Positions 11,537-42,001 of a stretch of DNA of 64,000 bases are shown piece after piece; within the stretch, counting starts at the first letter, position 1; every line of letters starts with the position of its first letter. The notes under the pieces were generated by a model. The model searched no databases and had not been told where the DNA came from. It saw nothing but the letters and a program-made list of their open reading frames with translations. The translations under genes were made by a program, and so were the position numbers. Origin of the DNA: Kineosporia sp. NBRC 101731 (GTDB lineage: Bacteria > Actinomycetota > Actinomycetes > Actinomycetales > Kineosporiaceae); NCBI RefSeq assembly GCF_030269305.1, contig NZ_BSTC01000002.1, forward strand, positions 310,001-374,000, read 5' to 3'.

Positions 11537-11587
11537 TTATCCACAGGAATGGTGAAATTCGACGGCCCGGAGAAGGTTGTCCACAGG
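11537..11587. promoter_or_regulatory. Paired TT(A/G)TCCACAGG boxes between tadA and the FHA-FtsK gene
   Basis: TTATCCACAGG at 11537-11547 and TTGTCCACAGG at 11577-11587 lie in the same orientation, 40 bases apart (start to start), in the divergent intergenic region. They lie 104 and 144 bases upstream of the tadA start and 41-81 bases upstream of the FHA-FtsK start. Both match the actinobacterial DnaA-box consensus. The same pair recurs upstream of cpaB, and one copy lies upstream of comF. Confidence 0.7.
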
Positions 11588-11627
11588 TGGCCGTCGCTCC
11601 CGCCGCGAGGGGCGCACAATCGATGGC

Positions 11628-14600
11628 ATGAGAGTCCGCGTCACTGTTGTTCTTTCCGAGATTGAATTGACTGCAGTTAATGTCGAGATCCAAGTGCAGC
11701 CGGGAACGCTACTGGGGTCTGTGAGCGATCAGCTCTCAGCTGTTCTTCCTGAGCCAAATAATCTGAAGAAGAGATATTTTCACTGCGGCGGCCAATCCGT
11801 ACCACTGACCCATCCGATCGGCCTCCCACCGCTCGTCCAGGGGGCAACACTGGTACTCAGAGCCCAGGAGGACGTTCCGGCAACCACCTCCGGGGTCCTG
11901 GAGGTCCACACGGTGGCCGGACCGGATGCCGGTCTCACCCACGCCCTAACGGTGGGGCACCCGGTCCTCATCGGCAGACACCGTTCCTCCGGTATCTCGC
12001 TGGCCGACCCCGACATCTCCCGTCACCACGCCGAGATATCAGCTTCGGACGATGGTCTGACCGTCAGGGATCTCGGTTCCGCGAACGGAACCCGAGTAGC
12101 GGATCAGCTCATCGGAAATGCTGTGTTCGAGTTGCGGCCCGGCGACCTGGTACGGCTGGGCAACAGCACCCTGGCCGTACGGACGCCGACCCGACCGGCC
12201 GCTGCCGTCACCCCGGACGCCGAAGGCCATCTCATGGTCAATCGGCGTGCGTCCCAGGAGCCACTGAAGCCTTTTGCACTGATCACCTTCCCGCAGCCAC
12301 TGTCCACTCCGCCCCGCCCGCAACTGCCCTGGCTCATGATGCTGGCGCCCCTGCTGCTCGCAGTGCCCCTGGCACTGCTGTGGAGGCAACCCGCCTATCT
12401 CCTCATCGCTGCGATGAGCCCGCTCCTGATGCTCGGGCAGTACGCCACCGACCGCCGCCGGGGTGGCCGCGAGAGCCGATGGCTGGCCAAGGCACACCGG
12501 AAGCAGACGCTCGAGGCGGAAGAGGCCCTGGAGATGGCTCTTTCCCGAGATGCCGAATATCTGGAGACCGTCTACCCCGATCTGGCCCGTCTCGCAGTCA
12601 CGGCCCGGGTCCCCACCGACGACCTCTGGCTCCGGACACCGCGACAGCACGTGGCCCTGGCCGTACGAATCGGCCGGGGCGAGGAGCCCTCATGTGTGAT
12701 CAAGCGCGATCCGGGCCGGAGCGGCCCTGAGGACACCGGTGAAACCCATCCCGTGCTCCCTGACGTCCCCGTCGGGCTGGAGCTCAGGGATTTCTCCGTC
12801 GTCGGCATCTGTGGGCCTCGCCGAGCTGTTCTCGGTACGGCCCGGGCCGTCATCGGTCAACTGGCAGTACTCCACTCGCCGCGTGACATCTCCATCGGTC
12901 TCCTGCAGTCACAGCCGACCGGCTCCGGAGAGGCAGAGGCCGACCAGAGCGTGCCCGAGTGGGAGTGGCTGACCTGGCTCCCTCACCATTCACCCGACCC
13001 GTCCGCATCGCCGGGCGCGATTCGGGTGCTGGTGCTCGACGGGGCCAGGCGCCTGCGACGGCGACCGGACGTCGCGGAGACGCTGTCCCGGGCCGGGGTC
13101 ACAGACCCGGGTGACACCCGGGAGACCAGGCATGTCCTTCGTGCTGACCCTCTGCGAACCACCCATGCCGCCGGAACCGTCGTCTTCTGCCTGGAGCAGG
13201 ACGAAGCGTCGTTGCCCCTGGAATGCACTGCCACCATCGTTCACACCGACGGTGCCGACGACGCTGTACTGCACCGAGCTGGGCAGGTCCCGAGATCGTT
13301 CCTGCCCGACCTGGCCGGAGCACGGTGGGCCGACCGGTTGGCTCGCGACCTCGCCCCCCTGCGTGATGCCACTCCCGACGCACGCACCGACATCCCCCGT
13401 CAGGTCCGGCTGGTCGATCTTCTGCGTCAGGTGCAGAAGATCGATCCCCTGGACGGAGGATCGCTCGCGCAGGCCTGGCGATCGGGTCCGGCGAGAGAGG
13501 AGAGAGGATCGACTGTCGCCGTCCTCGGGCAGTCCGCGGCCGGCCCGGTGACCGTCGACCTCCGCGCGGACGGGCCCCACGCGCTGATCGGCGGCACCAC
13601 CGGATCGGGCAAGTCGGAGTTGCTCCAGACGCTGATCTCGTCGCTGGCCGCCGGAACCGGTCCGGACCAGCTCATCCTGTTGTTGGTCGACTACAAGGGT
13701 GGGGCTGCCTTCCAGGCCTGCACCGGGCTTCCCCACGTGGGCGCGGTACTCACCGACCTCGATCTTCCGTCGGCGCGCCGGGCCCTCTCATCCTTCACCG
13801 CAGAGCTGCGACGCCGTGAAAGGTTGCTCCTGCAGGCCGGGGCCACCGATGTCGATGCTTACGCCACCGCCCGGGCGCATCGTCCCGAGCTGGAGCCGAT
13901 GCCGCGGCTCGTGGTCGTCGTCGACGAGTTCCGGGTACTGGCCGAGGAACTTCCGGAGTTCGTCACCGGTCTGGTCCGTATCGCCACGGTAGGCCGCTCG
14001 CTGGGGGTTCACCTGGTGCTCGCCACCCAACGCCCGGCCGGAGTGGTCTCCCCGGACATCGCGGCCAACGTGAATCTGCGGATCGCCCTCCGGGTCCGGG
14101 ACGCTGCCGACTCGCAGGACCTGATTGCCGGTCCTGCGGCCGCGTGGCTACCCGCGATTCCGGGGCGCGCGCTCCTGAGGGTCGGGGCGGCAGCACCGGT
14201 GGAATTCCAGGCCGCGCGGGTGAACGCGCACCTGCCTGCGGACCAGGGCATCGGTACTCCGGTCGTCCGGCTGCTTCGATCATCCTCCCCTGCTGTACTT
14301 CGCGCCGAACCAACTGATGAACCGGCCTCGGACGACCGGGAAGACCGTCCCGGCGATCTGGAGCGACTGGTCGACTCGACCCGGTCGGCAGCCGCCGCGC
14401 TGGGTCTCGTACAGGCCCGGGCCCCGTGGCTGCCGGAACTTCCGTCCGAGCTGGAACTCGGCCGACTGCGTCGGGGTTCCCGCCCTGAACACGTGATTTT
14501 CGGGTTGAGCGACCTACCCCACGAGCAACGGCAGGAAGAAGCAGGCTGGGATCTCACCGCCGGTCACCTGGCGATCGTGGGCGGTGCTCGTTCCGGACGT

Positions 14601-15887
14601 TCCGGTGTCCTGCGCACGCTGAGCGTCAGCGCCACGAAAGCCGAAGATCCACGCGTCCACACATATGTGCTGGACTCGTCCGGAGGGCTCGTCGATCTGG
14701 AGACGCGCGGAGTGGCACGGGCTGTCGTGCGGCTCGACGACCATGAACGCGCGGGACGCCTGTTGCGTCGGCTGGGCAAAGAACTGTACGAGCGGCAGAG
14801 ACCGGTGTCCGGATCGGGATCACGAGTGCTTCTGCTCGTGGACGGGTGGGATGCTCTGATCACGGCCCGGTCAGAACCCGGTGGTGCCGCGCTGCTGGAC
14901 TGTCTGCTGGCGGTACTGCGGGACGGACCGGCCGCAGCGATGAACGTCGCCGTCACCGGCGCCCTTCCTCTGCTGACCGGACCGCATTCGTCGTTGTTCA
15001 CCCAGCGACTCGTCCTGAGTCTGCCCGATCCGGTGGACGCCATGATGGCTGGAGTACCGGCGGAACTCGCGCGCAGCCCAGGCCGGCCCGGGCGAGGTGC
15101 GTGGCTTTCCTCGGGACATTCTGAATTCCATGTGGTCCAGGTCGCCCGATCGGTGAGTGAGCCCGTCGGATCGGCTGCCGGAGAACCTGGGACGACGGAC
15201 GACGGCTGGGCTGTTCCCGCCCTTCCGACAAGGGTTTCCCGCTCCGCTCTGTCTCCGGCGGAAGCTCCCGGCAAGGGCTCGGGGATCGTCGTGCCGATCG
15301 GGATCGGTGGCGATCAGGCCCGGACAGTCGGTCTCGATGTGACCGCTGCCCCGGTGACGCTGATCCTCGGGAGCCGCGGCAGCGGTCGGACGACAGCCCT
15401 GTTCAGCCTGGCCGAGGGATTGGAGGAGCTGGGCGTCCCCACGTTCATTCTCGATCATCGCACCGCCCGGCGGACAACCACCGCCGCCGACCTCACAGCT
15501 CGTCTGACGCTGCTGCCGAGCACGGTGGTGCTGATGGACCTTCCCCCGGTACCTGGTGCCGCAGTTCCCGACGACGGCGATCTGGCCGAGGCTCTGTCAG
15601 CGCATCTGGCCGGTGCTCACGGCGAAGAGGGACACCTCGTCCTGACCGCCTCCGGCCATGACGTCGTCGGAGCGTACCGAGGGCCGCTGCTCCTGGCTCG
15701 CGGCGCCCGGCAGGGACTCGTCCTGGGAGTGCCCACGCTCACGGATGGGGAGGCGTTCGGGCTCCGGCTCGATCGTCACCCGGCCGGGCCGCCGGGTCGT
15801 GGCGTACTCGTCGCTGCCGGGACAATGATCTCTGTGCAGGTCGCTCACCCGGCATCAGCGGGCGCCCCCGGTCCCGGAGACGCGTGA
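11628..15887 (+). CDS. Orphan FHA-FtsK/SpoIIIE protein, EssC/EccC-like
   Basis: The protein has about 1419 residues. An N-terminal ubiquitin-like/FHA-like domain (1-85, as in EssC) is followed by a textbook FHA domain (about 95-185: GRH, SRHH, SANGTR), two membrane helices (about 230-270) and three FtsK/SpoIIIE ATPase domains. The first has an intact Walker A (GGTTGSGKSE, about 654), Walker B LLVDYKGG and VVVVDEF. The second (GGARSGRSG, about 983) and third (GSRGSGRTT, about 1247) have arginine in place of the Walker A lysine. This is the architecture of type VII secretion ATPases, but no WXG100 or other ecc/ess gene is near. An upstream TTG at 11577 is unlikely as start because it is inside a regulatory box. 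Divergent from tadA. Confidence 0.88.
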   Translation: MRVRVTVVLSEIELTAVNVEIQVQPGTLLGSVSDQLSAVLPEPNNLKKRYFHCGGQSVPLTHPIGLPPLVQGATLVLRAQEDVPATTSGVLEVHTVAGPDAGLTHALTVGHPVLIGRHRSSGISLADPDISRHHAEISASDDGLTVRDLGSANGTRVADQLIGNAVFELRPGDLVRLGNSTLAVRTPTRPAAAVTPDAEGHLMVNRRASQEPLKPFALITFPQPLSTPPRPQLPWLMMLAPLLLAVPLALLWRQPAYLLIAAMSPLLMLGQYATDRRRGGRESRWLAKAHRKQTLEAEEALEMALSRDAEYLETVYPDLARLAVTARVPTDDLWLRTPRQHVALAVRIGRGEEPSCVIKRDPGRSGPEDTGETHPVLPDVPVGLELRDFSVVGICGPRRAVLGTARAVIGQLAVLHSPRDISIGLLQSQPTGSGEAEADQSVPEWEWLTWLPHHSPDPSASPGAIRVLVLDGARRLRRRPDVAETLSRAGVTDPGDTRETRHVLRADPLRTTHAAGTVVFCLEQDEASLPLECTATIVHTDGADDAVLHRAGQVPRSFLPDLAGARWADRLARDLAPLRDATPDARTDIPRQVRLVDLLRQVQKIDPLDGGSLAQAWRSGPAREERGSTVAVLGQSAAGPVTVDLRADGPHALIGGTTGSGKSELLQTLISSLAAGTGPDQLILLLVDYKGGAAFQACTGLPHVGAVLTDLDLPSARRALSSFTAELRRRERLLLQAGATDVDAYATARAHRPELEPMPRLVVVVDEFRVLAEELPEFVTGLVRIATVGRSLGVHLVLATQRPAGVVSPDIAANVNLRIALRVRDAADSQDLIAGPAAAWLPAIPGRALLRVGAAAPVEFQAARVNAHLPADQGIGTPVVRLLRSSSPAVLRAEPTDEPASDDREDRPGDLERLVDSTRSAAAALGLVQARAPWLPELPSELELGRLRRGSRPEHVIFGLSDLPHEQRQEEAGWDLTAGHLAIVGGARSGRSGVLRTLSVSATKAEDPRVHTYVLDSSGGLVDLETRGVARAVVRLDDHERAGRLLRRLGKELYERQRPVSGSGSRVLLLVDGWDALITARSEPGGAALLDCLLAVLRDGPAAAMNVAVTGALPLLTGPHSSLFTQRLVLSLPDPVDAMMAGVPAELARSPGRPGRGAWLSSGHSEFHVVQVARSVSEPVGSAAGEPGTTDDGWAVPALPTRVSRSALSPAEAPGKGSGIVVPIGIGGDQARTVGLDVTAAPVTLILGSRGSGRTTALFSLAEGLEELGVPTFILDHRTARRTTTAADLTARLTLLPSTVVLMDLPPVPGAAVPDDGDLAEALSAHLAGAHGEEGHLVLTASGHDVVGAYRGPLLLARGARQGLVLGVPTLTDGEAFGLRLDRHPAGPPGRGVLVAAGTMISVQVAHPASAGAPGPGDA

Positions 15888-16275
15888 CAGGAGCGCCGCC
15901 CCCGGAACGGGCGCCTCTCCAGGCCCCGCGGGGCGACCCGAGCTCGGGCGAGCCGTGATGCACGGGAAGACGTCGGGCCACGGATCTGCGGAATCCTGCG
16001 TGGTTCCGCACAGCGACAGGGTGACGCGACGAGCCCCTCACCCATCACTCTCGGAGCTCGGCATGAGGCTCCCGTGACACTGGGCAACCAACTTCCAGCA
16101 GCTTGTGACATACAGCTACTGGAGCTCAAAATCGCCGGACCCAGTGCTTCAGTTACGGCGCCGAGCACAACTCAGTGTGTTCTATCCTTGCCACATGGTG
16201 ACATCGGTTTCGTTCGGTAACGAACGAACCCCGCACCGCTACAACACAGCTCGTGCTGTGGGGTCCAGGAAGGGT
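15888..16275. other. Intergenic region upstream of the RsbW-type gene
   Basis: No gene is supported here. It should contain the end of the FHA-FtsK transcript and the promoter of the rsbW-sigF operon. An in-frame upstream ATG exists at 16195 but the better ribosome-binding site belongs to the GTG at 16276. The region contains the hairpin described at 16209-16228. Confidence 0.5.
16209..16228. promoter_or_regulatory. Perfect 8-bp palindromic hairpin upstream of rsbW
   Basis: Arms TTCGTTCG and CGAACGAA enclose a GTAA loop, which in RNA would be a GNRA-type tetraloop. It lies about 48 bases upstream of the probable GTG start of the anti-sigma gene. It could be an operator for a dimeric regulator or a structured leader; the sequence alone does not decide. 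Confidence 0.5.
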
Positions 16276-16698
16276 GTGGGCACGATTTCGCTCGGCAGCC
16301 GCTCCGAGACCGTCCGGAGTACGGACACCGTCGATCTGCGGGTTCCGGCCGATCCCGCCTATCTGGCGATGATCCGCACGGCAACCGCCGGGTTGGCGAC
16401 ACGGCTCGATCTGACGCTGGACGAGATCGAGGACCTGCGCATCGCAGTCGATGAGGCGTGCTCCCTGCTTCTTCAGGGCCGCGCTCATCCCGACCGGGCG
16501 ATCCACGCCGAATTCGAGGTGGGGCCGCCGGGGAGCGGCACGCTGTCCATCCTCATCACCGGCCCGGTCAGCCAGCTCCCCGAGGGGCGCGGCTATGCCT
16601 GGGCAGTGCTGCAGGCGCTCGCGGGTGACGTCATCACCGGCATCGGGGAGAACGGCGCATGGATCAAGCTGACGTACGTCGGACGGGGAGACCAGTGA
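16276..16698 (+). CDS. rsbW: RsbW/UsfX-type anti-sigma factor
   Basis: This is a GHKL-fold anti-sigma factor of about 140 residues that should bind and inhibit the sigma factor encoded next. Visible are VDLRVPADPAYLAMIRTATAGLA at the N-terminus, the N-box region DLRIAVDEACSLLLQ and the terminal GRGYAWAVLQALAGDV. The N-box asparagine found in active RsbW kinases is missing (VDEACSLL), as in M. tuberculosis UsfX (AVDEVC), and the DxGxG box is not recognisable. It may therefore sequester sigma without strong kinase activity. The GTG start is chosen for the AGGA 5 bases upstream; an ATG at 16195 is possible. The stop overlaps the sigF start (GTGA). Confidence 0.85.
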   Translation: MGTISLGSRSETVRSTDTVDLRVPADPAYLAMIRTATAGLATRLDLTLDEIEDLRIAVDEACSLLLQGRAHPDRAIHAEFEVGPPGSGTLSILITGPVSQLPEGRGYAWAVLQALAGDVITGIGENGAWIKLTYVGRGDQ

Positions 16699-17747
16699 TC
16701 CAGCAGCAGGAGTCGACGCTCAGTGTGCTGCAGCGCACACCCCGGCGGGATGGTTCCCCGGACGCACAGGCCGCCGAGGCCCACGCCGACCCCGTGGAGG
16801 ACGGAGTAGACGACGTTCCCGTCGTCGCGCCGACCCCCGAGGGCTCACCGGAGGTCGGCCCGGCCCAAGCGCCCGCTTCGGCTCCACACCGCCGCGCGGT
16901 CGCACCGCCGGCCGAATCGCCCCAGATGGTCGCGGCGCGCCTGAGGGAGAACACGGACGACGACCCGGCTACCCTTCGACGCCGAGGTCGGCACGTCCGG
17001 GATGACGACGAAGAGCCCGCCCCGCCCGACCCGGACCTGTTACGACTGTCGACCCTGTCCAAGGGCGACCCGCAGTACCAGCAGTTGCGACGCATCATCA
17101 TCGAGACGCACCTGCCCCTCGTCCACCACCTCGCACAACGATTCAAAGGCCGCGGCGAACCCTACGACGACCTCGTCCAGGTCGGCACCATCGGCCTCCT
17201 GCACGCCGTCGACCGCTTCGACCCCCAACGCGGAGCCTTCGCCGCCTTCGCCGTCCCCACCATCGTCGGAGAAATCCGCCGCCACTTCCGCGACCGCGGC
17301 TGGGCCATGCGCATCCCCCGCCGCATCCAAGACCTCGGCCGCCGCGTCTCCGAAGCCCGCGAAACCCTCACCCACACCCACGACCGCTCCCCCACCGTCC
17401 AGGAGATCGCCCAATACCTCGACGTGGACGCCGACCTGGTGATCGAGGCGCTCGACACGGCCAGTGCTTACATCACCGTGCCCCTGCCCACGACCGCCGA
17501 CGAGTCGGACCGGATGGGTAAGGCCTTCGAAGACGCCGGCCTGGAACTGGTGGAGCAGCGGGAGACCCTGCGGCCCCTTCTGGCCCGCCTGCCGGAACGC
17601 GAGCAGCGCATTCTTGAACTGCGGTTCGGCAAGGGACTGTCCCAGGCACAGATCGCGGCCGAGGTGGGCGTCTCGCAGATGCACGTCTCCCGGCTACTCA
17701 CCAAGAGCCTCAACATCCTGCGCAGCGGACTCACACAAGAGTTCTAG
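16695..17747 (+). CDS. sigF: SigB/SigF-family RNA polymerase sigma factor with long N-terminal extension
   Basis: This is a stress/development-type group 3 sigma factor of about 350 residues. Conserved region 2 begins near residue 139 (LPLVHHLAQRFKGRGEPYDDLVQVG), region 3 contains RIPRRIQDLGRRV and region 4 the helix-turn-helix LSQAQIAAEVGVSQMHVSRLL. It is unusual in carrying about 115 residues of acidic, Pro/Ala-rich sequence before region 2; SigF proteins are commonly about 260 residues. Translation probably starts at the GTG overlapping the rsbW stop by four bases, giving coupling and balanced expression. Codon use changes sharply between about 17112 and 17420 (see findings). A strong hairpin follows. 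Confidence 0.92.
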   Translation: MIQQQESTLSVLQRTPRRDGSPDAQAAEAHADPVEDGVDDVPVVAPTPEGSPEVGPAQAPASAPHRRAVAPPAESPQMVAARLRENTDDDPATLRRRGRHVRDDDEEPAPPDPDLLRLSTLSKGDPQYQQLRRIIIETHLPLVHHLAQRFKGRGEPYDDLVQVGTIGLLHAVDRFDPQRGAFAAFAVPTIVGEIRRHFRDRGWAMRIPRRIQDLGRRVSEARETLTHTHDRSPTVQEIAQYLDVDADLVIEALDTASAYITVPLPTTADESDRMGKAFEDAGLELVEQRETLRPLLARLPEREQRILELRFGKGLSQAQIAAEVGVSQMHVSRLLTKSLNILRSGLTQEF

Positions 17748-17779
17748 AGCCTGTCCGGGGCCGGTAAGCCCCAGAACCC

Positions 17780-17819
17780 CGCTATCGCACCCGTGCACCC
17801 CTGCACGGGTGCGATAGCG
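17780..17819. terminator. Bidirectional terminator between sigF and a membrane-protein gene
   Basis: A perfect 18-bp inverted repeat (arms 17780-17797 and 17802-17819) with a CCCC loop lies between two convergent genes. Its symmetry and position fit a shared terminator, although neither side has a long U-run. Confidence 0.85.
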
Positions 17820-17821
17820 CG

Positions 17822-18268
17822 TTAGGCGGCCTGTTCTTCGTCCTCCCGCACGATCACGTGGCGGCCGGCAACGAGGACCCCGACGACGACCGCGAGCGCC
17901 AGGATCGGGATCCCGACGTACCAGAGGCTGCTGGCGGACACCGGCATGCCCACGCCCGCCTGAAGCAACTGCCAGGTGAGAACCGGGCCCCGCGTCCATC
18001 GAGCACCCTGACGGATCGCCCGGGCACAGCCCGCCAGAGCCAGGCCGACAACGGACGCCACGACCGCGAGACCGATGTCGTTCATCGGGCGTTCGGCCCC
18101 GGCACTCTCGATCGCCAAGGCCGTGGCCCCCGCCAGCAGGGCGAGCGCCTCGATGCCGACCAGGGCCGCCACCAGGAGCCGCAGCCTCTCACTCGCCGCG
18201 GCACCGGTCCCGGTCCGATCCGCCGGGCTTTCCTGGCTTGCCATCCGACCCATCCTCTCCCTCATCAT
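17822..18268 (-). CDS. Small integral membrane protein
   Basis: The 148-residue protein has four predicted membrane helices: LLVAALVGIEALALLAGATALAI, DIGLAVVASVVGLALAGC, a weaker one around VLTWQLLQAGVGMPV, and YVGIPILALAVVVGVLVAG. The tail is acidic (REDEEQAA). It resembles the small four-helix membrane proteins common in actinobacteria but I cannot name a family. The start may be the M at residue 10 rather than residue 1. It is convergent with sigF. Confidence 0.75.
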   Translation of the reverse strand: MMRERMGRMASQESPADRTGTGAAASERLRLLVAALVGIEALALLAGATALAIESAGAERPMNDIGLAVVASVVGLALAGCARAIRQGARWTRGPVLTWQLLQAGVGMPVSASSLWYVGIPILALAVVVGVLVAGRHVIVREDEEQAA

Positions 18269-18998
18269 CCATTTACCCGATAGCGATTAAACCCGTTACC
18301 CTAAAACCGAACTCGACACGGTTCCGCAGACGCGAGGTTCGTTCTGCGACAACGACTGTCAGAAGTACATCAGCCCAGACTTAAGGCTTTGAAAGCTATT
18401 CTTGCGGCGATGCACTCAGTCGGCCCCATTGGGGTCTTTTGGGCACTTCGGCCTGCGGAGTCGGCGCGCGTGCGTCAATATAAGAGTCGGAACAAGGCAC
18501 GGCTCACTCTGCGTTGAACACCCGGAAGAATCCTGGCACCACTCTTCCGGCTCTTTCACGGCGTGCACTCAGGAATGTACGCGCCGTACTAGAGCGTTCA
18601 CCAAACGCGTTCTTTGCCCCACACCCTGGGTCACAGAACGGACACGACCGATGCGAACCAGCGTTCGACCAGGCAGATTCTGTCAAGAGCAATGACCAGC
18701 AATGTATATACGCAGCGTGTTCGAACGACTACAGTCCTGCATCGTGACCGTGGGCAACGAGACATCGCGCAGATCACTCGGGGAAAACCCTTGTGAAAGC
18801 GGGCACAAGCGTGTGAGGCTGGATGCCGAATCCGGTGCAAGCACGTGAAACACAAACACCGATGACTGGGTCAGCCCGGTCACCCCGGCCACATCCCGCA
18901 AACCGGGTGAAGGCCAAACATCCACGAGCAACGGCGTCTGCAGCCGTGTCTCGAACCGTATACAACCGCCCGTTCGGGCGTGAGGAGTGGACGATCCC
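18269..18998. other. Long lower-GC intergenic region upstream of whiB1
   Basis: About 730 bases without a supported gene and visibly less GC-rich than the rest of the window. It should contain the whiB1 promoter. Two structures stand out: a hairpin with 8-bp arms (18522-18529 / 18543-18550) followed by CTCTTTC, and a CRP-like palindrome at 18790-18809. Short open frames here have no ribosome-binding sites and non-actinobacterial codon use. Confidence 0.5.
18790..18809. promoter_or_regulatory. Candidate CRP-family binding site upstream of whiB1
   Basis: CTTGTG-N8-CACAAG is a perfect palindrome, and it contains TGTGA-N6-GCACA, one base from the CRP consensus TGTGA-N6-TCACA. In M. tuberculosis whiB1 is known to be controlled by the cAMP receptor protein Rv3676. 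The site is about 190 bases before the whiB1 start, so it would belong to a promoter with a long leader. Confidence 0.5.
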
Positions 18999-19247
18999 AT
19001 GGATTGGCGCCATGAGGCTGCTTGCCTCGAGGAGGACCCGGAGCTGTTCTTCCCGATCGGGAACACCGGCCCTGCGATCCTTCAGATCGAGGAAGCCAAA
19101 GCTGTTTGCCGTCGATGCGAGGTCGTCGAGACGTGCCTTCGCTGGGCCATCGATTCCGGGCAGGACGCCGGAGTCTGGGGTGGCCTGTCGGAGGACGAGC
19201 GTCGTGCGCTGAAGCGCCGCAACGCTCGTGCCCGTCGCGCCAGCTGA
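18999..19247 (+). CDS. whiB1: WhiB1-type iron-sulfur transcriptional regulator
   Basis: The 82-residue Wbl protein coordinates a 4Fe-4S cluster and acts with the primary sigma factor. The four cysteine ligands are in EAACLEEDPE, AKAVCRRCEVVETC, followed by the turn GVWGG and the basic tail EDERRALKRRNARARR. The pattern matches WhiB1 (MDWRHxAxC, ELFFPxGNxGPA) rather than other Wbl classes. I chose the ATG giving MDWRHEAAC, as in the family; a GTG at 18987 would add four residues. AGGAG lies 11 bases before the ATG. Adjacent to pdtaS, as in M. tuberculosis. Confidence 0.95.
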   Translation: MDWRHEAACLEEDPELFFPIGNTGPAILQIEEAKAVCRRCEVVETCLRWAIDSGQDAGVWGGLSEDERRALKRRNARARRAS

Positions 19248-21236: not shown

Positions 21237-21281
21237 GCGGCCACTCTAACGAGGGCTGCAGGTCGTCACCGGCGGTAGAGG

Positions 21282-21309: not shown

Positions 21310-21354
21310 ACCTCACATCCGGAGGTTCAGCCGCGTTTGCTCAGCATGGGCCGG

Positions 21355-28314: not shown

Positions 28315-29640
28315 TCATGCGCTGCGCCTTCCCCACCGGGCACGGCGACGCGGACGGCCGGAGAACCCCGGGGTGTACTGCTCGATCAAGGACGCCGCCA
28401 GCGCCTCGAACGGACGGCAGGCCGGTGACGTGGGTGCCTGCTCCGTGAGCGAACGCCCCAGCAGCATGGCGGCGTCCAGCGCGGGACGATCGTCAGGAAT
28501 CAGCAAGGGTTCGCGCACCCCGGCGTAGCGCCGCAGTGCATCGGCGATCATCTGTTCGGGGTGATGACCGACCGCCCCGTCGCGGACCCGGGTCACGATC
28601 ACGCGGATCGCTGCCGTACCGGCCAGGTCGGTCACCTCCGGCAGCCCGGCGATGAGCCGTTGCAGTCCCAGAGGCTCGGCGCTGCCGACGGCAAGCACCA
28701 CGTCTGCCGCGGCAATGGCGGAGAGTGTGGCGGCGTTGCGACGAGGAGCAGTGGTGTCGAACATCAGTTCCTCATCGGCCTCCAGACCGAAGCCTGCGTC
28801 CACCACGGTCCATCCCGCCAGTGACCGGGCCTTCTCCCAGACCACGTCGAGGGCGGACGCGCGCAGTTCGGGCCAGCGGCGGGACTGCGGCAGCCCGGTC
28901 AGCACCCGCAGCCCGGACTCCAGGGGTGGAGCGAGTTCAGCCAGCTTCGGTAGGTCGAGCGTGCCCTGGTTCGCGGCGCGGGCGGCCGCTGCGATACCCG
29001 CTGTCTCGTCGAGCAACCCCAGGGACTGAGCGATAGCGGCACCATGCGTGTCAGCGTCGACGAGCAGGGTGTCCTGCCCAGCGAGCGCGAGATGCGACGC
29101 GAGAGTGAGTGCGACGGTCGTGCGGCCCGGCGCCCCGGTCGGTCCCCAGACCGTGACGATCCTTCCCGGCGGTGACGATGGGAGGGTCGGCATCTCCGGG
29201 AAGGACGGCCCGGGTGGGCAGGGTAGTGCCGCACTCGGGTCGCCGAACGCAGGACTTCCGAGAAGGGGTTGCTGGCCTGCAAGTTCAGCTACCGCCGCGG
29301 CCACCGCGGCGGCGATGTCCTCCACCGGGGTGTCGGCGGCCAGGACGGGGTCGACGCCGAGCCGGGCCAGCCGCTCGGCGGCTGCCCGGTCGCCCGGTGC
29401 GGCGAGACCGACAACCGCCAGCCCGGCAAGTCGCAGCCGCGTGACGGCATCGCGGTCCAGGCGCTGGAGTTCGGCCGAGAGCACGACAGCCCTCGCCAGG
29501 CCGGCGCCCGCGGCGGAGAGCAGGTCGAGCACGTCGACGCAGCGTCGCACCACGGTGACGCCCGCGGACGACCGTTCGAGTCCCGAGACCAGCGGTGCCT
29601 CGCGGTCACCGACGACGGCAGTGAGAACGGTGAGGGTCAC
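28315..29640 (-). CDS. CpaE/TadZ-like MinD-type ATPase of the Tad system
   Basis: The 441-residue protein combines an N-terminal receiver-like domain (1-130) with a MinD/ParA-type ATPase domain. Tad systems use CpaE/TadZ to place the pilus machine at a cell pole. The ATPase has VWGPTGAPGRTTVALTLA (about residue 162), in which the Walker A lysine is arginine, followed by LLVDADTHG, which keeps the Asp of motif A'. It may bind nucleotide weakly or not hydrolyse it. The ATG overlaps the cpaB-like stop by four bases (ATGA). It is separated by 17 kb from the main tad operon. Confidence 0.87.
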   Translation of the reverse strand: MTLTVLTAVVGDREAPLVSGLERSSAGVTVVRRCVDVLDLLSAAGAGLARAVVLSAELQRLDRDAVTRLRLAGLAVVGLAAPGDRAAAERLARLGVDPVLAADTPVEDIAAAVAAAVAELAGQQPLLGSPAFGDPSAALPCPPGPSFPEMPTLPSSPPGRIVTVWGPTGAPGRTTVALTLASHLALAGQDTLLVDADTHGAAIAQSLGLLDETAGIAAAARAANQGTLDLPKLAELAPPLESGLRVLTGLPQSRRWPELRASALDVVWEKARSLAGWTVVDAGFGLEADEELMFDTTAPRRNAATLSAIAAADVVLAVGSAEPLGLQRLIAGLPEVTDLAGTAAIRVIVTRVRDGAVGHHPEQMIADALRRYAGVREPLLIPDDRPALDAAMLLGRSLTEQAPTSPACRPFEALAASLIEQYTPGFSGRPRRRARWGRRSA

Positions 29641-30311
29641 GAGCGGGAGACCGGTCGGGGTGTGCCGAGCACCGGCAGGATGCTGAGCCGGGCCTCACCG
29701 GACACCGCCTCCAGTACATCGGTCAGTTTCTGCTCGGGCACGAGCACCTGCAGCGAACCGGACCGGCTCGAGTTGAGGCCGGTACCCGGACCGGTGACCG
29801 CGAACACCTCGACGTCGGAAGCAATCTGGCGAGGCACCTGATATCCGGCGCGCCCTTCCTCACGCGGGAGGGCGGCCCAGATGTCAGCCCGCCCGCCGGC
29901 CGCGAGGCCCCCCGGCGGCGGGCCGTCGAAGGGAATGACGACCGGCCGAACCGACAGGCTGGCGGCAGAGCCGATCGCCGCCATCGGAATCAGCTCACCG
30001 TCGCCGACCGTGCGGACGAGCACGGCGCCCACGGGAAGAGGACTGTCCGCGTCGAGATAGCCGGCCCCCGTGCCGTCTACCCTGACCCGGACCACGCGCA
30101 GCACCTCCGCGGTCAACGCGGTCCCGGGCGGCAGCGCACCGCGCGCAGCATAGACCGCGCGTGTCTGCCCGGCCTCGGCCACCAGCCGGGCCCCGGCCGC
30201 GATCGAACCGAACAACAGCACCAGCCCGACGATGAGTCGAGGGTCGCGCCAGCCCGGCCGTCTCAGCCTCGCGGGCGCCGTCCTCGTCGACACCAGCTCG
30301 GACACCACCAT
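29637..30311 (-). CDS. CpaB/RcpC-like SAF-domain protein
   Basis: About 224 residues: a basic cytoplasmic N-terminus (RLRRPGWRDPR), one membrane helix (LIVGLVLLFGSIAAGARLV), then an SAF domain (ARGALPPGTALTAEVLRVVRV, GAVLVRTVGDGELIPMAAIGS) and a C-terminal RcpC/CpaB domain. CpaB-type proteins belong to Flp pilus assembly; in Gram-positives the secretin partner is absent. The ATG at 30311 is preceded by GGGGG at good spacing. It is divergent from the BldC-like gene and shares a promoter region with paired TGTGG(A/G)(T/C)AA boxes. Confidence 0.86.
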   Translation of the reverse strand: MVVSELVSTRTAPARLRRPGWRDPRLIVGLVLLFGSIAAGARLVAEAGQTRAVYAARGALPPGTALTAEVLRVVRVRVDGTGAGYLDADSPLPVGAVLVRTVGDGELIPMAAIGSAASLSVRPVVIPFDGPPPGGLAAGGRADIWAALPREEGRAGYQVPRQIASDVEVFAVTGPGTGLNSSRSGSLQVLVPEQKLTDVLEAVSGEARLSILPVLGTPRPVSRS

Positions 30312-30441
30312 GACGCCCCCTTCAATCTCCCCCGGGAAAACAGCCGCAGAAACTCCAGCAACCCCGGAGAGCAACTACATGGTCACTGTGTGCGGTTCAT
30401 CGTGGCAGAAAGCAGGACAATCGGGCGCCCGATTCGCGCAA

Positions 30442-30480
30442 CCTGTGGATAAGGCCGGCTTCGTGGCGGCCTGTGGACAA
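30442..30480. promoter_or_regulatory. Paired TT(A/G)TCCACAGG boxes between cpaB-like and BldC-like genes
   Basis: Read on the minus strand, TTGTCCACAGG (30480-30470) and TTATCCACAGG (30452-30442) are repeated in the same orientation, 28 bases apart. They sit 133 and 161 bases upstream of the cpaB-like start and about 89 bases upstream of the BldC-like start. The pair repeats the two exact boxes found upstream of tadA. Both match the actinobacterial DnaA-box consensus. Confidence 0.7.
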
Positions 30481-30568: not shown

Positions 30569-30790
30569 GTGACTCCCCGCTTCCTGGAACTCGCCGACGT
30601 CGCCGAGGAGCTCAGCATCTCCGTGCGACAGGCCTACACACTGGTGCGCTCCGGCGAGCTGCCGGCGATCCAGGTCGGTGGCCGCGGCCAGTGGCGCGTC
30701 GAGACGTCCGTCCTGGAGGAGTACATCCAGAACAAGTACGCCGAGACCCGCGAGATGGTACGTAACCGCCCGGCCTCCGAGACGGACTGA
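30569..30790 (+). CDS. Excisionase/BldC-like MerR-type helix-turn-helix protein
   Basis: The 73-residue protein is a single winged-helix DNA-binding domain: LELADVAEELSISVRQAYTLVRSGELPAIQVGGRGQWRV, the HTH_17/excisionase pattern also seen in BldC. A short acidic-basic tail follows (YIQNKYAETREMVRN). The GTG start has AGGAGGG 4-5 bases upstream; a longer open frame upstream lacks one. It is divergent from cpaB-cpaE and has no adjacent integrase or phage gene, so a transcriptional role is more likely than excision. It is the only regulator adjacent to either Tad locus besides the Xre protein. Confidence 0.88.
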   Translation: MTPRFLELADVAEELSISVRQAYTLVRSGELPAIQVGGRGQWRVETSVLEEYIQNKYAETREMVRNRPASETD

Positions 30791-30844
30791 TCGACGCCAC
30801 CCCACCCGCACGGGCAGGCCGATGGACCAGTCACAGCTGCGGCC

Positions 30845-33889: not shown

Positions 33890-36619
<2,730 letters not shown>

Positions 36620-36792
36620 GGGGCGCTCTCCCAGATCCTTCAACCGTGCTTGTGTCCGGCGGCGCGACCTGTGATCACGCTGCCGCTTCTAGGCATGACG
36701 AACGGCAGTGCCGTGCCGTGCCCTCCATCGTAGACAGGCTTGGGACCAAACGTGTTTGCTCCACCGGCGCTTCATCGGTCAGGCTCGCAGGT

Positions 36793-37950
36793 GTGTCGGG
36801 TGAGTGGTCTTCCTCCAGCAGCCTTGTCCCCCAGCTCACCGACGGTTTGGTGACGCTGCGCGAGCTTCGTGAAGCAGACGTCGACACCATCGTCGCGTAC
36901 TGCAACGACCCGGCCATGGAGCGCTGGACCACGGTTCCGTGGCCCTACCGGCGTGAACACGCCCTCGAGTACGTCGCCGCCGGGCGACGGTCGTGGGCCG
37001 AGGGATCACGTTTCGACTTCGGCATCGAGTACGAGGGCCGGCTGGTGGGGGCGGTCGACCTGCGCCGGCCGGTCCTGCCCGCACTGGCCGAGGTCGGCTT
37101 CGCCCTGGCCCCGCAGGCGCGGGGCCGGGGCCTCATGACCCGGGTGTTGCGCCTGGTGCTGCCCTGGGGCGCCCGTCAGGGCATCCAGGTGGTGCAGTGG
37201 CGGGCCAACGCCGGCAACTGGGCCAGCCGGCGGGCTGCCTGGTCGGTGGGCTTCACCGTGGAGGGCCCGCTGCCCGGTCTGCTGGAACACCGGGGAGCGA
37301 TCGTCGACGGCTGGCTGGGATCGATGCGCGTGACCCCGGACACGGCCTTGGTGCCGGCCCATCCCTGGTTCGACCCGGTGACGATCACCGGTCGCTCGGT
37401 GAAGCTGCGCGCGGCCCGGGAGAGCGATGTCCCCCGCTTCGTGCAGGGCCACGCCGACCCGGCGAACAAGCGCTGGATCCCGGGCATCAAGGAGACCTAC
37501 ACCGAGGCTGATGCCCGGGCCCATCTGGAACGGGACGCCGAGAGCGCGGCCGCCGGGCGAGTGCTGTCCTGGGTGGTGGTCGATCCGGAGCTGGACGTGA
37601 TGCTCGGTGAGGTACAGGTCTTTGTGCAGAACCTCCGCGACGGTCAGGGCGAGATCGGCTACTGGCTGCATCCCGAGGGGCGCGGGCGGGGCCTCGCGAC
37701 CGAGGCGACGTTCCTGGCCGCACGGCACGCCCTGCTCCCGGTCGAGGAGGGCGGTCTGGGCTGGAACAACCTGGGCCTGCGGGCGAGCGCCGACAACCTG
37801 GCCTCGCAACGCGTCGCCGAGCGGGCCGGGTTCCGGCGGGTCGGCATCGAGCGCAACATCCACCAGCCACCGTCGGGCGGTGCCCGCACCGGCCTGGTGA
37901 AGTACGACATGGTGCCCGCCGATCTGGCCACCCTCGAGTACCCGGCATGA
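36793..37950 (+). CDS. Tandem-domain GNAT acetyltransferase
   Basis: About 385 residues with two complete GNAT folds. Domain 1 (about 20-190) has LTDGLVTLRELREADVDTIVAY and GFALAPQARGRGLMTRVLRLVLPWG; the acetyl-CoA loop is QARGRG. Domain 2 (about 200-380) has VTITGRSVKLRAARESDVPRFV and GYWLHPEGRGRGLATEATFLAARHAL. The substrate is unknown; RimJ/RimL-type N-terminal or small-molecule acetylation is possible. The GTG at 36793 is the most plausible start; open sequence upstream is poor. It overlaps the next GNAT gene by four bases (ATGA). Confidence 0.9.
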   Translation: MSGEWSSSSSLVPQLTDGLVTLRELREADVDTIVAYCNDPAMERWTTVPWPYRREHALEYVAAGRRSWAEGSRFDFGIEYEGRLVGAVDLRRPVLPALAEVGFALAPQARGRGLMTRVLRLVLPWGARQGIQVVQWRANAGNWASRRAAWSVGFTVEGPLPGLLEHRGAIVDGWLGSMRVTPDTALVPAHPWFDPVTITGRSVKLRAARESDVPRFVQGHADPANKRWIPGIKETYTEADARAHLERDAESAAAGRVLSWVVVDPELDVMLGEVQVFVQNLRDGQGEIGYWLHPEGRGRGLATEATFLAARHALLPVEEGGLGWNNLGLRASADNLASQRVAERAGFRRVGIERNIHQPPSGGARTGLVKYDMVPADLATLEYPA

Positions 37951-38510
37951 GCCGGCCCCGCCGCCAGCCGGAGTCAGCCCTGGCGGACGGCTACCGACTG
38001 CGCCCCTGGAGTACCTCCGACGCCCCCATGATCCAGATGGCCATGCGCGACGTGCTGGTCCGGCAGTACGCGTCGCAGCTCCTCGACGACCGCGACGCCG
38101 TGCTCGGGGCCGTCCACACCTGGAACGGCCAGTGGCACGACGGGGCCGGTGCGGCCTGGGCCATCACCGAGCCGGGCGGGGAGGCCATCGGGCAGGTGCG
38201 CTTCGGGTTGCTCGACGAGGAACTCGGCACCGGCTCGGTGGGGTACTGGCTGATGCCCGAGGCTCGGGGCCGGGGCCTGGCGGCCCAGGCCCTCACACGC
38301 TCGAGCACCGTGGTCTTCGCCCGGCTGGGGTGGCACCGCATCGAGCTCTACCACGCGGTCGAGAACGCCCGGTCCTGCGGCGTGGCCCGGCGGGGCGGGT
38401 ACCCGATGGAGGGCGTCATGCGTGAGGCCATGCGCTACCCCGTCGACGGCCGGCTCTCCGACGAGCACCTGCACGCCCGGCTCACCTCCGACGAGCAGAA
38501 CCAGCATTGA
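37947..38510 (+). CDS. GNAT family acetyltransferase
   Basis: The 187-residue single-domain GNAT protein is of RimJ/RimL type: DGYRLRPWSTSDAPMIQ, then GYWLMPEARGRGLAAQALTRSSTVVFARLGWHRIELYHAVEN. The acetyl-CoA loop EARGRGLA is intact. It starts inside the stop of the tandem GNAT gene, so both are one transcription unit. The two proteins may act on related substrates. Convergent with the YcaQ-like gene 41 bases away. Confidence 0.92.
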   Translation: MSRPRRQPESALADGYRLRPWSTSDAPMIQMAMRDVLVRQYASQLLDDRDAVLGAVHTWNGQWHDGAGAAWAITEPGGEAIGQVRFGLLDEELGTGSVGYWLMPEARGRGLAAQALTRSSTVVFARLGWHRIELYHAVENARSCGVARRGGYPMEGVMREAMRYPVDGRLSDEHLHARLTSDEQNQH

Positions 38511-38551
38511 GGACGAGGCACCTCACCTGACGGGACCCGTCACGCCCCTCC

Positions 38552-39904
38552 TCACCGCCCGAACAGCTGGGCGAGCGCCGGGCCGAGATCTCCCTTCGGC
38601 TCGGCGACCACCCCGTCCAGCTCCAGCCACCGGGCCATCAGCCGCAGCTCGTCGGCCAGTTCCCCGAGAACGGCCGGCGCCGGCACCCCGGGCTCGGAGT
38701 AGGCCGCCTTCACCAGCAGCCGCCCTCCCCCGCCGGGCGCCCGGTCGGCCTTCAGGTCGACCCGGCCCACCAGCTGCTCGCCGAGCAGGAAAGGCAGCAC
38801 GTAGTAGCCGAATTCACGCTTGGCGGCCGGGGTGTAGATCTCCAGCCGCAGGCGGAAGTCCCAGAGCACCTCCGTGCGCGGACGTTCCCAGACCAGGGAG
38901 TCGAAGGGGCTCAGCAGGGCCCGGGCAGTGATCCGGCGCGGCACCCGGGCCCCCGGGTTCAGATAGGCCTGGCGCCCCCAGCCCTCGACGGTCACCGGCA
39001 GCAGCTCACCGGCCTCGACCAGGTCCCGGACGGCGGCCTGGGACTCGGCCGGTTTCAGCCGGAAGTAGTCGCGCAGACAGCGCTCTGTCGCGACCCCCAG
39101 AGCCCGGGAGGCGATCCGTACCAGCTCCCGCCGGGCATCTTCGGGGTCGGGGTCGGCAGCCGCGGTCACGGCTTTCGGCAGCACCCGCCCGGGTAGGGCG
39201 TAGCGGCGCTCGAACTGCTGGGTGCGGCCGACGGAGGTGATCCGCCCGGCCCAGAACTGGAACTCGATGGCCCGTTTGACGTCGCTCCAGTTCCAGCCCC
39301 ATTCACCGGTTCGCTCGCGCGGTGTTCCGTCGCCCACGATCTTCTCGGCGGCGGAGGCGGTCAGCGGCCCGTGCCGGTCGATCACCTCGAGCACCTCGTC
39401 GAGCAGCTCGGCGCGATCACGGGCGATGCGCTGCATACCGCCCCAGGCCTCGTGCGCGGCACGGTCCATGCGCCAGCGCAGCAGCCGGTGGGTCTCGGGC
39501 GCGATGAACGACGCCTCGTGGGCCCAGTACTCCACCATCCGCCGCGGCGCGGTGTTCGCGGCCTTCTCCAGCAGCGCCCGTGGGTAGTCACCGAGCCGGC
39601 TGAAGACGGGCAGGTAGTGGCTGCGCGACAGCACGTTCACCGAGTCGATCTGCAGCACGCCGACGGTGTCGATCACCTTCTGGACGTGCCGCGAACTGAT
39701 CGGCCCGCTGGGCCGCTCCACCCCGAAACCTTGTGCGGCCAGGGCAATACGGCGGGCCTGGGGCAGACTCAGCCGTTCCCGGGAGGATCTCCTCCCGGGA
39801 ACGGCCGGGTCGGGTAAAGGTGCTTCGGGGGCAGAGGGTCTCAGGCCGGCGCGCCGGCCGTGGCCTCCGCGTCGACTGCCAGTCGAATCACTCCGTAGTT
39901 CCAC
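38552..39904 (-). CDS. YcaQ/AlkX-type winged-helix DNA glycosylase
   Basis: This family (HTH_42) removes bulky alkyl adducts and unhooks interstrand crosslinks. Visible are [49 protein letters not shown] (a hallmark region), and [23 protein letters not shown] with [10 protein letters not shown] near the C-terminus. The start is problematic: no ATG, GTG or TTG lies in frame between the hpf stop and the conserved N-terminus. The GTG at 39904 would overlap hpf by 64 bases and run through the hpf terminator hairpin; a GTG at 39721 would remove conserved residues. I chose the longer start provisionally. Confidence 0.85.
39773..39804 (-). terminator. Terminator-like hairpin downstream of hpf
   Basis: A perfect 15-bp inverted repeat (39773-39787 / 39790-39804) with a 2-base gap, 37 bases past the hpf stop. 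The tight loop means a slightly shorter stem in RNA. It falls inside the region that must be translated if the YcaQ-like gene starts upstream of it. Confidence 0.75.
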
Positions 39905-40605
39905 CCGCGCCGACGATAGACCACAGAGGGCCGGTTGCACGCGGCGTCGACGAAGAGGAAGAAGTCGTGACCCACGAGCTCCATCTCGTAGAGCGCCTGG
40001 TCGATGGTCATCGGCCGGGCCTCGTGGTCTTTCGTGCGGATCACCACCGGGCTGTCCGCGAGCGCCTCGGCCCCTTCGGGCAGGTTGGCCCAGTCCATGC
40101 TCTCGGCGAAGCCGTCGATCTCGTCCGCGGCGTCCTCGAGAGGGTCGCGGGTCTTCGTGGGGGCACCGTTCCGGGTGCCGGCTGTGTCTTCGATCGGGCG
40201 CTCGGCCAGCGCGATGCCGGCCTGGGTCACTGCGGCACCGGTCCGGCCGCCTTCACCGGGGGCCCCGAGGCCGCGCACCGTGGCGGGGGCGTGCCGGCCG
40301 TGATGGACCTTCTTCCGGTCGGCCACGCGCCGGAGCCGCTCGAGCAGCTTGCCGAAGGCGATGTCCAGCGCGGACAGTTCGTCCTGGCCGCAGGCTTCGG
40401 CGCGGATGACCGGACCGCGGTCGCGCACGGTTATCTCGATCCGCTCGCAGTTGCTGCTTTGCCGCGGATTCCGCTCGTGGGACAGCTCGACGTCGATACG
40501 GAAGGCCGTCGGGCTGAGCTGGGACACCTTCTCCAGCTTCTCCTCGGCGATCCGCCGGAACCGGTCTGTAACCTCAACGTGCCGACCAGTAATCACGATG
40601 TCCAC
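39841..40605 (-). CDS. hpf: Ribosome hibernation promoting factor, long form
   Basis: About 254 residues. The N-terminal domain ([27 protein letters not shown]) binds the 30S subunit; the C-terminal domain (about 195-254: [31 protein letters not shown]) mediates dimerisation of two ribosomes into 100S particles. A long linker of about 80 residues lies between them. The GTG start has AGGAGG at 7-base spacing, which is decisive against the longer frame. In M. tuberculosis the orthologue Rv3241c lies between secA1 and comF, the same order as here apart from intervening GNAT and YcaQ genes. Confidence 0.95.
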
Positions 40606-40751
40606 GAAGAATCCTCCTGTAGCGTTGCTACGCCTCATGTGCCAGGCCGAACGGGCCGCGATCTCGGAAGGTTCCGAATCGAACCGGAATCGGCCCGGAA
40701 ATGGCACGGGCGCCAGTGCAATGACGGGGAAATCGCTGGGCGAGAAGCCAG

Positions 40752-41603
40752 CTACTTCTTGACATCCTCCTTCCTGCTTTCCGCGCCGAAATCAGCGTGG
40801 AGGGCGGAAGTGGCGACCCGACGGCCGCCGTGCGTCGAGATTAGAGCAGGCGTTCCGATGTGGATACCCCCTGTCCGACGTAATGTCACCGACAAACCGC
40901 TGACACCGACCACGCGGGCCCCCTGAGAGGTCAGCGCGCGCGCCGCTTCTGCCGCGGTCGCGCCGGTCGTGACAACGTCATCGACGATGACGCATCCGCG
41001 TTGCCGGAGAGGAAAGCGCAGTCCCTCCCGGACGGCAAGCGCACCCGCCAGATTGTCGCGCCGGGCCCGGGCGGACAGTTCCCCCTGATCGCGGACACCA
41101 CGGCGGTGCGTGAGCACCGGCGCGACCTGTGGCGGCGGGCCGAAACCGGCGGCCGACCAGGCCGGGCCGGCCTGCCGGACGGCCTGGCGGGCCAGGTCGG
41201 CGACCAGGTCGCCACCCCGCCGGCGACGGGCCGGGCCGGACGAGGGGACCGGCACCACCAGCCAGCGACCACCCGGCCCACGAGTAGACGCCCGGCAGGC
41301 CAGGAGCGCCCTGGCCAGAGCTGCGCCGAACGGTCCGGTGAGGTCATGGCGCCCGCGCTCCTTCCAGGCCACCACCAGCCGGGCCGCTACGCCGCCGTAG
41401 GTCGTGGCACCCCAGACGCCCCAGCCGGGTGGCCAGCCCACCATCGGCCGGAAGAACGCCGGAGCGTCCAGCAGACCGCCGCAGGCGGCGCACAACGGCA
41501 CGTCCGGAGCACCGCACCCGGCACACTCCGGGGGCCAGACCAGCCCTCCGCCCAGTCGCCAGAACATGCCTGCCGAATTCATTGCTTTCGCTGTGAAAAG
41601 CAT
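40752..41603 (-). CDS. comF: ComF family protein (phosphoribosyltransferase-like)
   Basis: About 283 residues. The N-terminus has a zinc-type cysteine pattern (PPECAGCGAPDVPLCAACGG) and the C-terminal part the PRPP-binding loop CVIVDDVVTTGATAAEAA. ComF is needed for transformation in several bacteria but is also kept in non-competent ones; its exact reaction is unknown. I chose the ATG at 41603; another in-frame start is at 41639. Upstream lies a TTATCCACAG box (41653-41663) of the kind seen at both Tad loci. It is one gene upstream of hpf, with a 146-base gap, in the Rv3242c position. Confidence 0.92.
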   Translation of the reverse strand: MLFTAKAMNSAGMFWRLGGGLVWPPECAGCGAPDVPLCAACGGLLDAPAFFRPMVGWPPGWGVWGATTYGGVAARLVVAWKERGRHDLTGPFGAALARALLACRASTRGPGGRWLVVPVPSSGPARRRRGGDLVADLARQAVRQAGPAWSAAGFGPPPQVAPVLTHRRGVRDQGELSARARRDNLAGALAVREGLRFPLRQRGCVIVDDVVTTGATAAEAARALTSQGARVVGVSGLSVTLRRTGGIHIGTPALISTHGGRRVATSALHADFGAESRKEDVKK

Positions 41604-42001
41604 GATTCCACCCTGGCCTGTCCGGTATCGGCCCGCCATCTCCGGCCGCCGTACTGTGGATAAGGACTTCGTTGTGCCTACCTGTGAATGTACGACGCCG
41701 GACGGTGATGTTCCCGGGTCCTACGTCCGCAACACACCGGCCTTGCGGCCCGGGTGGAAGAACTCATCACCCGAATGACGCAATAATTCGGAGCACCCTC
41801 CGAAAGGGAACTTCCCGGAACTGCTTGAGCGAGCACTGAGCGCCCGTTCACATCGGCCCATCACGAACGCATCACGGCCGATCGGCAACCGCCGGACGTT
41901 CGGCCCGAACGCGCCTATCACAGACAGATCACGACGGTGCGCAGGACAACGAACGAAAACCGACAGACCGAAATACCGGGCGATCCGGGCAGGTGATCGG
42001 G
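41604..42001. other. Intergenic region between comF and lpqB
   Basis: About 400 bases. It carries the TGTGGATAA box at 41655-41663 and a weak CCTGTGAATG half-site 28 bases further out. An open frame at 41721-42023 has no family signature and lacks a ribosome-binding site. No clear lpqB terminator was seen. Confidence 0.5.
41653..41691. promoter_or_regulatory. TTATCCACA box upstream of comF
   Basis: TGTGGATAA at 41655-41663 (TTATCCACA on the comF strand) is an exact copy of the motif at the Tad loci. CCTGTGAATG starting at 41681 shares CCTGTG with the Tad boxes, and its TGTG (41683) lies 28 bases from the first, the same spacing as at cpaB. The second half is otherwise degenerate. Confidence 0.55.

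Follow-up and report, generated by a model that had tools for sequence, protein, structure and literature searches.

The 64-kb stretch of Kineosporia sp. NBRC 101731 analyzed here (the window; contig NZ_BSTC01000002.1, positions 310,001 to 374,000) carries two tad pilus loci and a comF gene, and an intergenic region at each of the three holds copies of the 9-mer TTRTCCACA. In the first of these regions a tadA gene diverges from a gene for an FHA-FtsK protein, in the second a cpaB-like gene diverges from a gene for a BldC-like HTH_17 protein, a layout like that seen in many genera, and the third lies upstream of comF (Table 1). We find that the motif is very probably where an activator binds in a competence (natural transformation) promoter, and comparison of promoter sequences shows that this box-promoter architecture recurs in many families of the class Actinomycetes.

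Exactly five TTRTCCACA sites occur in the window, at 11537-11545 and 11577-11585 on the forward strand and at 30444-30452, 30472-30480 and 41655-41663 on the reverse strand, compared with 0.23 expected by chance (100 dinucleotide shuffles with a maximum of 3, so that five was never reached). An earlier note on this DNA had counted five exact sites in three intergenic regions, above chance, and its description holds in most details: four sites extend to TTRTCCACAGG, the comF site differing in that it reads TTATCCACAGT; the cpaB pair is spaced 28 base pairs (bp) apart; and a weak half-site does lie 28 bp from the comF box, the comF pair scoring as a composite element with the profile R1 described below. 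The near matches listed in the same note at 61715, 57610 and 56648 are absent from a scan of the window allowing up to two mismatches of the 11-mer. The tadA/FHA-FtsK pair is spaced 40 bp, not 28, and its proximal box lies about one helical turn closer to the start codon than in most com promoters, the FHA-FtsK start having been picked by eye from resemblance to the N-terminus encoded at locus L436. The comF start was re-assigned to the ATG at 41603, 57 nucleotides (nt) downstream of TCCACA.

Table 1. Boxes, promoter elements and genes of the three intergenic regions and their surroundings, in window coordinates; E, E-value.
Feature	Position	Strand	Evidence and remarks
tad T2SSF membrane protein gene	8410..9336	-	Pfam T2SSF
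tadA ATPase gene, divergent from FHA-FtsK	10204..11433	-	Pfam T2SSE; TIGR03819 3.7e-76, below cut-off; start uncertain (11433 or 11325)
Distal box TTATCCACAGG, upstream of FHA-FtsK (EssC-like) gene	11537..11547	+	Motif scan
Proximal box TTGTCCACAGG, FHA-FtsK	11577..11587	+	TCCACA 48 nt before ATG at 11628; CACAAT 35 nt downstream
FHA-FtsK protein, EssC/EccC-like type VII secretion ATPase	11628..15887	+	Pfam FHA and FtsK_SpoIIIE; NCBIfam TIGR03928 4e-121, below curated cut-off
ParA/CpaE-like ATPase gene, cpaB operon	28315..29640	-	Pfam CbiA
cpaB/RcpC-like SAF-domain gene	29637..30374	-	Pfam SAF; start uncertain, none at usual 57 nt
Proximal box TTATCCACAGG, cpaB composite element	30442..30452	-	28 bp from distal box; R1 E 9.8e-8 (R1 seed); CACGAT 45 nt downstream
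Distal box TTGTCCACAGG, cpaB composite element	30470..30480	-	Motif scan
HTH_17 (BldC-like) DNA-binding protein gene, divergent from cpaB	30569..30790	+	Pfam HTH_17; relative of M. luteus Mlut_14660
comF	40752..41603	-	Weak ComF/Pribosyltran matches, below cut-offs (TIGR00201 9.1e-11)
comF -10-like CAGGGT	41610..41615	-	45 nt downstream of TCCACA
comF composite element	41653..41689	-	Degenerate distal half TTCACAGG, GGCACA centre, proximal box TTATCCACAGT; R1 E 7.4e-6 (R1 seed)

Across the home genome assembly (8.26 Mb, 88 contigs), TTRTCCACA occurs at 65 sites, about twice the 32 of a reversed-pattern control, and the DnaA gene, located by a PF08299 match at C1:251577, has 11 of the 65 around it (C1:244-277 kb). 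When C1:240-340 kb is set aside, 28 of the 31 sites with a G as the next base fall between called genes, against 8 of 20 with any other base there (Fisher p 0.0003). When the G-extended sites are aligned, many prove to be the second half of a longer element, CCACAGG, GGCACGA, TTRTCCACAGG, in which two CCACAG repeats about 28 bp apart, start to start, flank GGCACGA (11 seeds). This composite element lies about 45 bp upstream of a TANNNT or CANNNT -10-like element and usually about 57 bp before a start codon. The profile R1, with 43 sequence-only positions, was made from the 11 seeds, which were selected after the composite and its distance to the start had been noticed; none of the R1 columns extends to the -10 or the start. 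R1 returned 15 home-genome matches at E <= 3.1e-4, the seeds included, from the best 150 of 9372 first-look candidates (scans with R1, and with the model R2 introduced below, scored at most the best 150 candidates per genome). Among its 16 best matches, (T/C)ANNNT follows the proximal TCCACA at 44-45 nt in 12 (3 TANNNT, 9 CANNNT), and an ATG or GTG follows it at 55-60 nt in 12. The bare 9-mer is not specific; the composite element largely is.

The composite element precedes comEA, yraN-comM, comF, ssb, priA, cpaB, a second tad operon, a DUF4192 gene (L067, G000:C19:35256) and others. Home-genome gene boundaries were taken from a simple purpose-made gene caller that left some genes uncalled; family searches confirm YraN, ComM, ComEA, SSB, SAF/RcpC, PriA, a tadA-type T2SSE protein and the CpaE homologue Ssd among the downstream products, and throughout this study dnaB, valS, recQ, comEC, AbiEi (L439), endonuclease IV, HNH, DapD, phosphorylase, three recA and the Micrococcus luteus tadA were named by eye. 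The gene yraN (UPF0102) is followed by comM behind a single element, the comEA element gene encodes HHH_3 and SLBB domains with a large open frame in the comEC position, priA was identified by its 3' DNA-binding domain, and in the second tad operon the gene for Ssd is followed by a T2SSE (tadA) gene. Additional genes behind the element include a helicase-like frame (weak DEAD match) and two genes whose proteins have KRPGPIYDRV in common (L052, C7:96296; L063, C15:161179), a Pfam search of one of these giving no match. A WXG100 protein gene (C8:134662), starting 186 nt after its box, is a less clear member. R1 finds 6-15 matches per genome at E <= 0.001 in the home genome and all five congeners, where by eye the element stands before comEA in three (G002, G003, G005), yraN in one of these (G003) and recA in another (G001). 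In other genera of the same family R1 found a single weak match, in one of seven genomes.

To survey the class, we used the ComEA model TIGR00426, which matches at E <= 1e-6 in 192 of 196 class genomes (105 above the curated cut-off), and took the promoter regions of 58 loci hand-picked for diversity from 30 families. TCCACA lies 56-60 nt before an in-frame ATG or GTG in 24 of the 58, in 16 families other than that of the home genome, the distance window having been fixed after initial inspection of the data. Forward site-start pairs in 5-nt bins number 22 at 55-59 nt, 5 at 60-64 nt and 0-10 elsewhere, the highest other bin, 85-89 nt, being the place of the upstream box copy, and reverse-strand pairs number 0-2 per bin. 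A TANNNT follows TCCACA at 44-48 nt in 22 of the 24 loci (14 families; L243 and L274, without one, were excluded), at distances of 45 nt (13 loci), 46 (5), 44 (2), 47 (1) and 48 (1), and, in a search of the 12-22 nt ahead of the start codon, this -10 was found to begin 12-14 nt from it. Outside Kineosporia the first three letters of the DnaA box, its TTR part, are weakly kept, and the com boxes are single or form repeats of 28 bp or 17 bp. The pilus/competence regulon proposed in the earlier note is supported by the home-genome gene set, where the motif stands before comEA as the composite element, and by the recurrence at comEA in 16 other families; the conservation in relatives with the same genes that the note had called for is seen in five of five congeners and in 24 of 58 comEA loci of other families, and by R1 in one of seven other genomes of the family.

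Because R1 gave one weak match in seven other family genomes beyond the genus, a second model for the whole class, R2, was trained on the 22 comEA promoters with TANNNT and used to scan 25 genomes, 19 of them sources of its seeds. Of 32 R2 loci examined, which include all non-comEA matches down to E 0.0107, 13 lead to competence, pilus, secretion or DNA-processing genes: a comEA that the strict spacing test had missed, recA in four genomes (starts 58, 59, 59 and, in the fourth, 91 nt after the box), three cpaB-type genes including one in the home genome, an FHA gene resembling the FHA-FtsK gene of the window, a PD-(D/E)XK nuclease, a WXG100 gene and two named by eye, an endonuclease IV and an HNH-type gene. 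Pfam confirms one RecA, the FHA domain, both new SAF genes, the nuclease and the WXG100 gene. Counting all searches, a box precedes recA in one congener (L129) and in four genomes of three further families (L412, L424, L429, L438), one of these genes being confirmed by Pfam and the rest named by eye. The window locus at 11628-15887 together with L469:1836-4835, L091 and L408 shows an EssC/EccC-like FtsK ATPase beside tadA and, in the home genome (C8:134662) and a genome of the M. luteus family (G014), WXG100 genes downstream of com boxes. Taken together these loci hint at a link between type VII secretion and DNA uptake.

Several observations weigh against a competence promoter. The remaining 19 of the 32 R2 loci have no competence, pilus, secretion or DNA-processing gene, comprising an AbiEi-like, a phosphorylase and a DapD-like gene and 16 with nothing convincing, several of which lack the box. 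(Two families have AbiEi-type genes downstream of boxes, at L073, G000:C1:1543722, and by eye at L439.) The strict spacing test fails in 34 of the 58 comEA loci, and in family f5 the box is found in 0 of 7; some of the 34 failures are start-codon errors, two of these loci (G081, G036) being recovered by R2, and in another (L271) the contig ends early. In the home genome ssb and cpaB lack a start codon near 57 nt, CANNNT makes up most of the -10-like elements, and several boxes precede genes without a clear link to transformation (valS-like, DUF4192); before the valS-like gene, as before FHA-FtsK, the box lies about 10 bp, or one helical turn, nearer the -10 and the start. The bare 9-mer also occurs near the replication origin (oriC) and before dnaB-, valS- and recQ-like genes, so that the occurrence at unrelated genes which the earlier note had named as a refutation is partly seen for the 9-mer and much less for the composite. 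Lastly, the boxes at M. luteus comEA are all degenerate (TGCACA, TCCCCAGG), and in the M. luteus genome G331 R2 gives no full-length match at E <= 0.2 except a weak 57-position one at C1:448994. Six comEA promoters of the genus Micrococcus (L449, L450, L452, L455, L444, L447) have a distal TCCTGCACA in common and a degenerate proximal box; the motif has therefore drifted in this genus.

The M. luteus loci Mlut_14660/14650 and Mlut_07490 resemble the window in their gene pairs, HTH_17 with cpaB and tadA with an EssC-like FtsK gene, and in having boxes in both intergenic regions. Mlut_07490 was identified by two published motifs, GTTGSGKS and AAAAPAVAPWE, and encodes an EssC/EccC-like ATPase (matches below curated cut-offs) in which Pfam did not find FHA; it diverges from the tadA-like gene, as in the window, with boxes facing both genes, and the tadA-side box TTGTCCACAGT lies exactly 45 nt before TATCTT. 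According to the relevant passages of an ethyl methanesulfonate (EMS) study, a mutation in Mlut_07490 cuts transformability at least 1000-fold, nearly all mutants in which comEA expression was raised were altered in the HTH_17/cpaB region, and HTH_17 R64W re-introduced alone restored the raised expression (PMC8467076). The passages of that study on these loci describe no shared motif and propose transcriptional interference instead (PMC8467076). The EMS-mutated positions, HTH_17 codons S27, S46 and R64 and the G at -8 and -44, were verified in G331.

The earlier note had inferred a common factor reading the sites, possibly the BldC-like protein or DnaA; a common factor may read them, DnaA is a plausible reader, and the BldC-like protein is weakened as a candidate. 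The DnaA box is the 9-mer TTWTNCACA, in its actinobacterial form TTRTCCACA, to which the window sites conform. The 1.5 kb next to the DnaA C-domain was searched in 20 genomes and gave 117 TCCACA boxes (19 genomes having any); their preferences at positions 1-3 and 10 are like those of com boxes, and the profile common to both is a TCCACA core with mostly T or C at positions 1-2, a purine at 3 and G at 10; the preferences are somewhat weaker in the oriC-region boxes, as expected for a set that includes chance sites. Because of this resemblance we would place DnaA ahead as the reader, at somewhat less than an even chance. PF08299 matches in 36 of 36 genomes searched, and a second DnaA-domain protein as dedicated reader was rejected on the ground that 34 of the 36 have a single match. 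Second matches were seen to the DnaA C-terminal domain in G149 (C11:326733-326921, 2.4e-16) and, partial, in G040.

Of comparable but lesser standing is a dedicated competence activator that would share the TCCACAG core with DnaA by chance, which we regard as a serious minority possibility. The com boxes differ from oriC DnaA boxes in keeping one orientation and a distance of about 45 bp to a -10, whether they stand alone or form 28-bp or 17-bp repeats, and neither this geometry nor the GGCACGA centre of Kineosporia is oriC-like. E. coli DnaA is reported to favour boxes 2-3 bp apart (PMC11317965), a rule to which repeats about 28 bp apart do not conform, and which argues against DnaA as the reader. 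In G014, moreover, four of five box-bearing R2 matches read TCCACAT, as do 0 of 11 intergenic boxes around dnaA, which again speaks against DnaA; the T is not general, because the fifth match and the HTH_17/cpaB box read TCCACAG. No candidate protein for such an activator was found, and the class box profiles resemble those of oriC boxes.

That the BldC-like HTH_17 protein beside cpaB reads the box, binding direct repeats and controlling the com genes and its own locus, is unlikely. The M. luteus mutants described above, which map to this region and in which R64W alone suffices, favour it, as does the survey of 80 named loci around HTH_17 homologues (closest named relatives Kineosporia mesophila, 97%, and K. 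rhizophila, 89%), in which 35 of the 47 loci whose neighbour is cpaB-like, by sequence pattern rather than domain search, carry TCCACAG or its complement in the 420 bp upstream of HTH_17, a count uncorrected for kinship. By the same test the motif lies there in 3 of 25 loci with a DUF6912-type neighbour (mostly Micromonospora) and in 4 of 8 others, again uncorrected for kinship, so the box tracks cpaB and not HTH_17; in the M. luteus family it faces away from HTH_17, toward cpaB, in 29 of 30 loci (drawn from 289 genomes with a match). Of 24 genomes with a comEA box, 7 lack an HTH_17 match at E <= 1e-7, and a regulator would be expected wherever the box is. The M. luteus -44 leader mutation, which is reported to lower transformability with comEA expression unaltered (PMC8467076), lies outside any TCCACA box in G331. 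Contig WNZI01000011.1 (L196), titled Vibrio cholerae strain 35D, carries an actinobacterial HTH_17/cpaB locus; the record is therefore probably contaminated or mislabelled.

It is very improbable that the sites are ordinary DnaA boxes titrating DnaA or timing replication, with their nearness to competence genes incidental: the 9-mer is a DnaA box, near oriC, before a dnaB-like gene and about twofold over control genome-wide, but a preferred distance to the -10 and start, a single orientation and the recurrence at comEA in 16 other families would not be expected of titration sites. Hardly credible is TTRTCC as the -35 hexamer of an alternative sigma factor, which would account for a promoter-linked, directional box, yet 45 bp to TANNNT far exceeds the usual spacer of 16-19 bp and TTR is weakly kept outside Kineosporia. 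A PafBC-type motif was considered and set aside, its box-to-10 distance being much shorter.

The sites, their spacing, the gene set and its phylogenetic spread are computational observations. With DnaA as with any single common reader, we infer that the element would activate transcription and that the transcripts would be leaderless: one protein would bind one or two YYRTCCACAG boxes, the proximal box about 45 bp, or some four helical turns, upstream of a TANNNT-like -10, and would switch on transcripts beginning at or near the start codon. In the home genome the composite element, with its ~28-bp repeat of CCACAG and TTRTCCACAGG around GGCACGA, would drive comEA, yraN-comM, comF, ssb, priA, cpaB and a tad operon, and a shorter-spaced form would stand before the FHA-FtsK gene. 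More tentatively, DnaA may be the factor that activates natural competence across the class Actinomycetes and couples DNA uptake to the state of replication, acting from a box some 45 bp ahead of a leaderless-type promoter, with the EssC-like type VII ATPase and WXG100 proteins of its regulon as parts of the uptake apparatus.

Competence boxes of model bacteria include ComK boxes, the sigma-X cin box and CRP-S sites. As with these, one cis-element here is common to DNA-uptake, recombination and pilus genes; the sequence and architecture differ. BldC binds AT-rich direct repeats, and here too an HTH_17 protein gene lies beside direct repeats, whose sequence and spacing differ from those of BldC and which occur in some genomes without an HTH_17 match. 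In the literature searched (titles, abstracts and passages of one literature collection) we found no earlier description of an actinobacterial com box. M. luteus is reported to have no homologue of the B. subtilis ComK cascade apart from ComA (PMC4322843), the word "competence" does not occur in the consulted text of a review of DnaA in transcription (PMC8203912), and a January 2026 M. luteus paper states that the upstream signals or regulatory cascade of competence remain to be identified (PMC12849477).

The regulation of competence in Actinomycetota is described as poorly understood, and a promoter element of defined, strict geometry offers this field a reporter-ready target and turns the identity of the regulator into a direct question of binding. 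The element also predicts members of the regulon from sequence, among them recA, the EssC-like ATPase and the DUF4192 and WXG100 proteins. Taken together, we speculate that transformation may be commoner in actinobacteria than the few tested species suggest.

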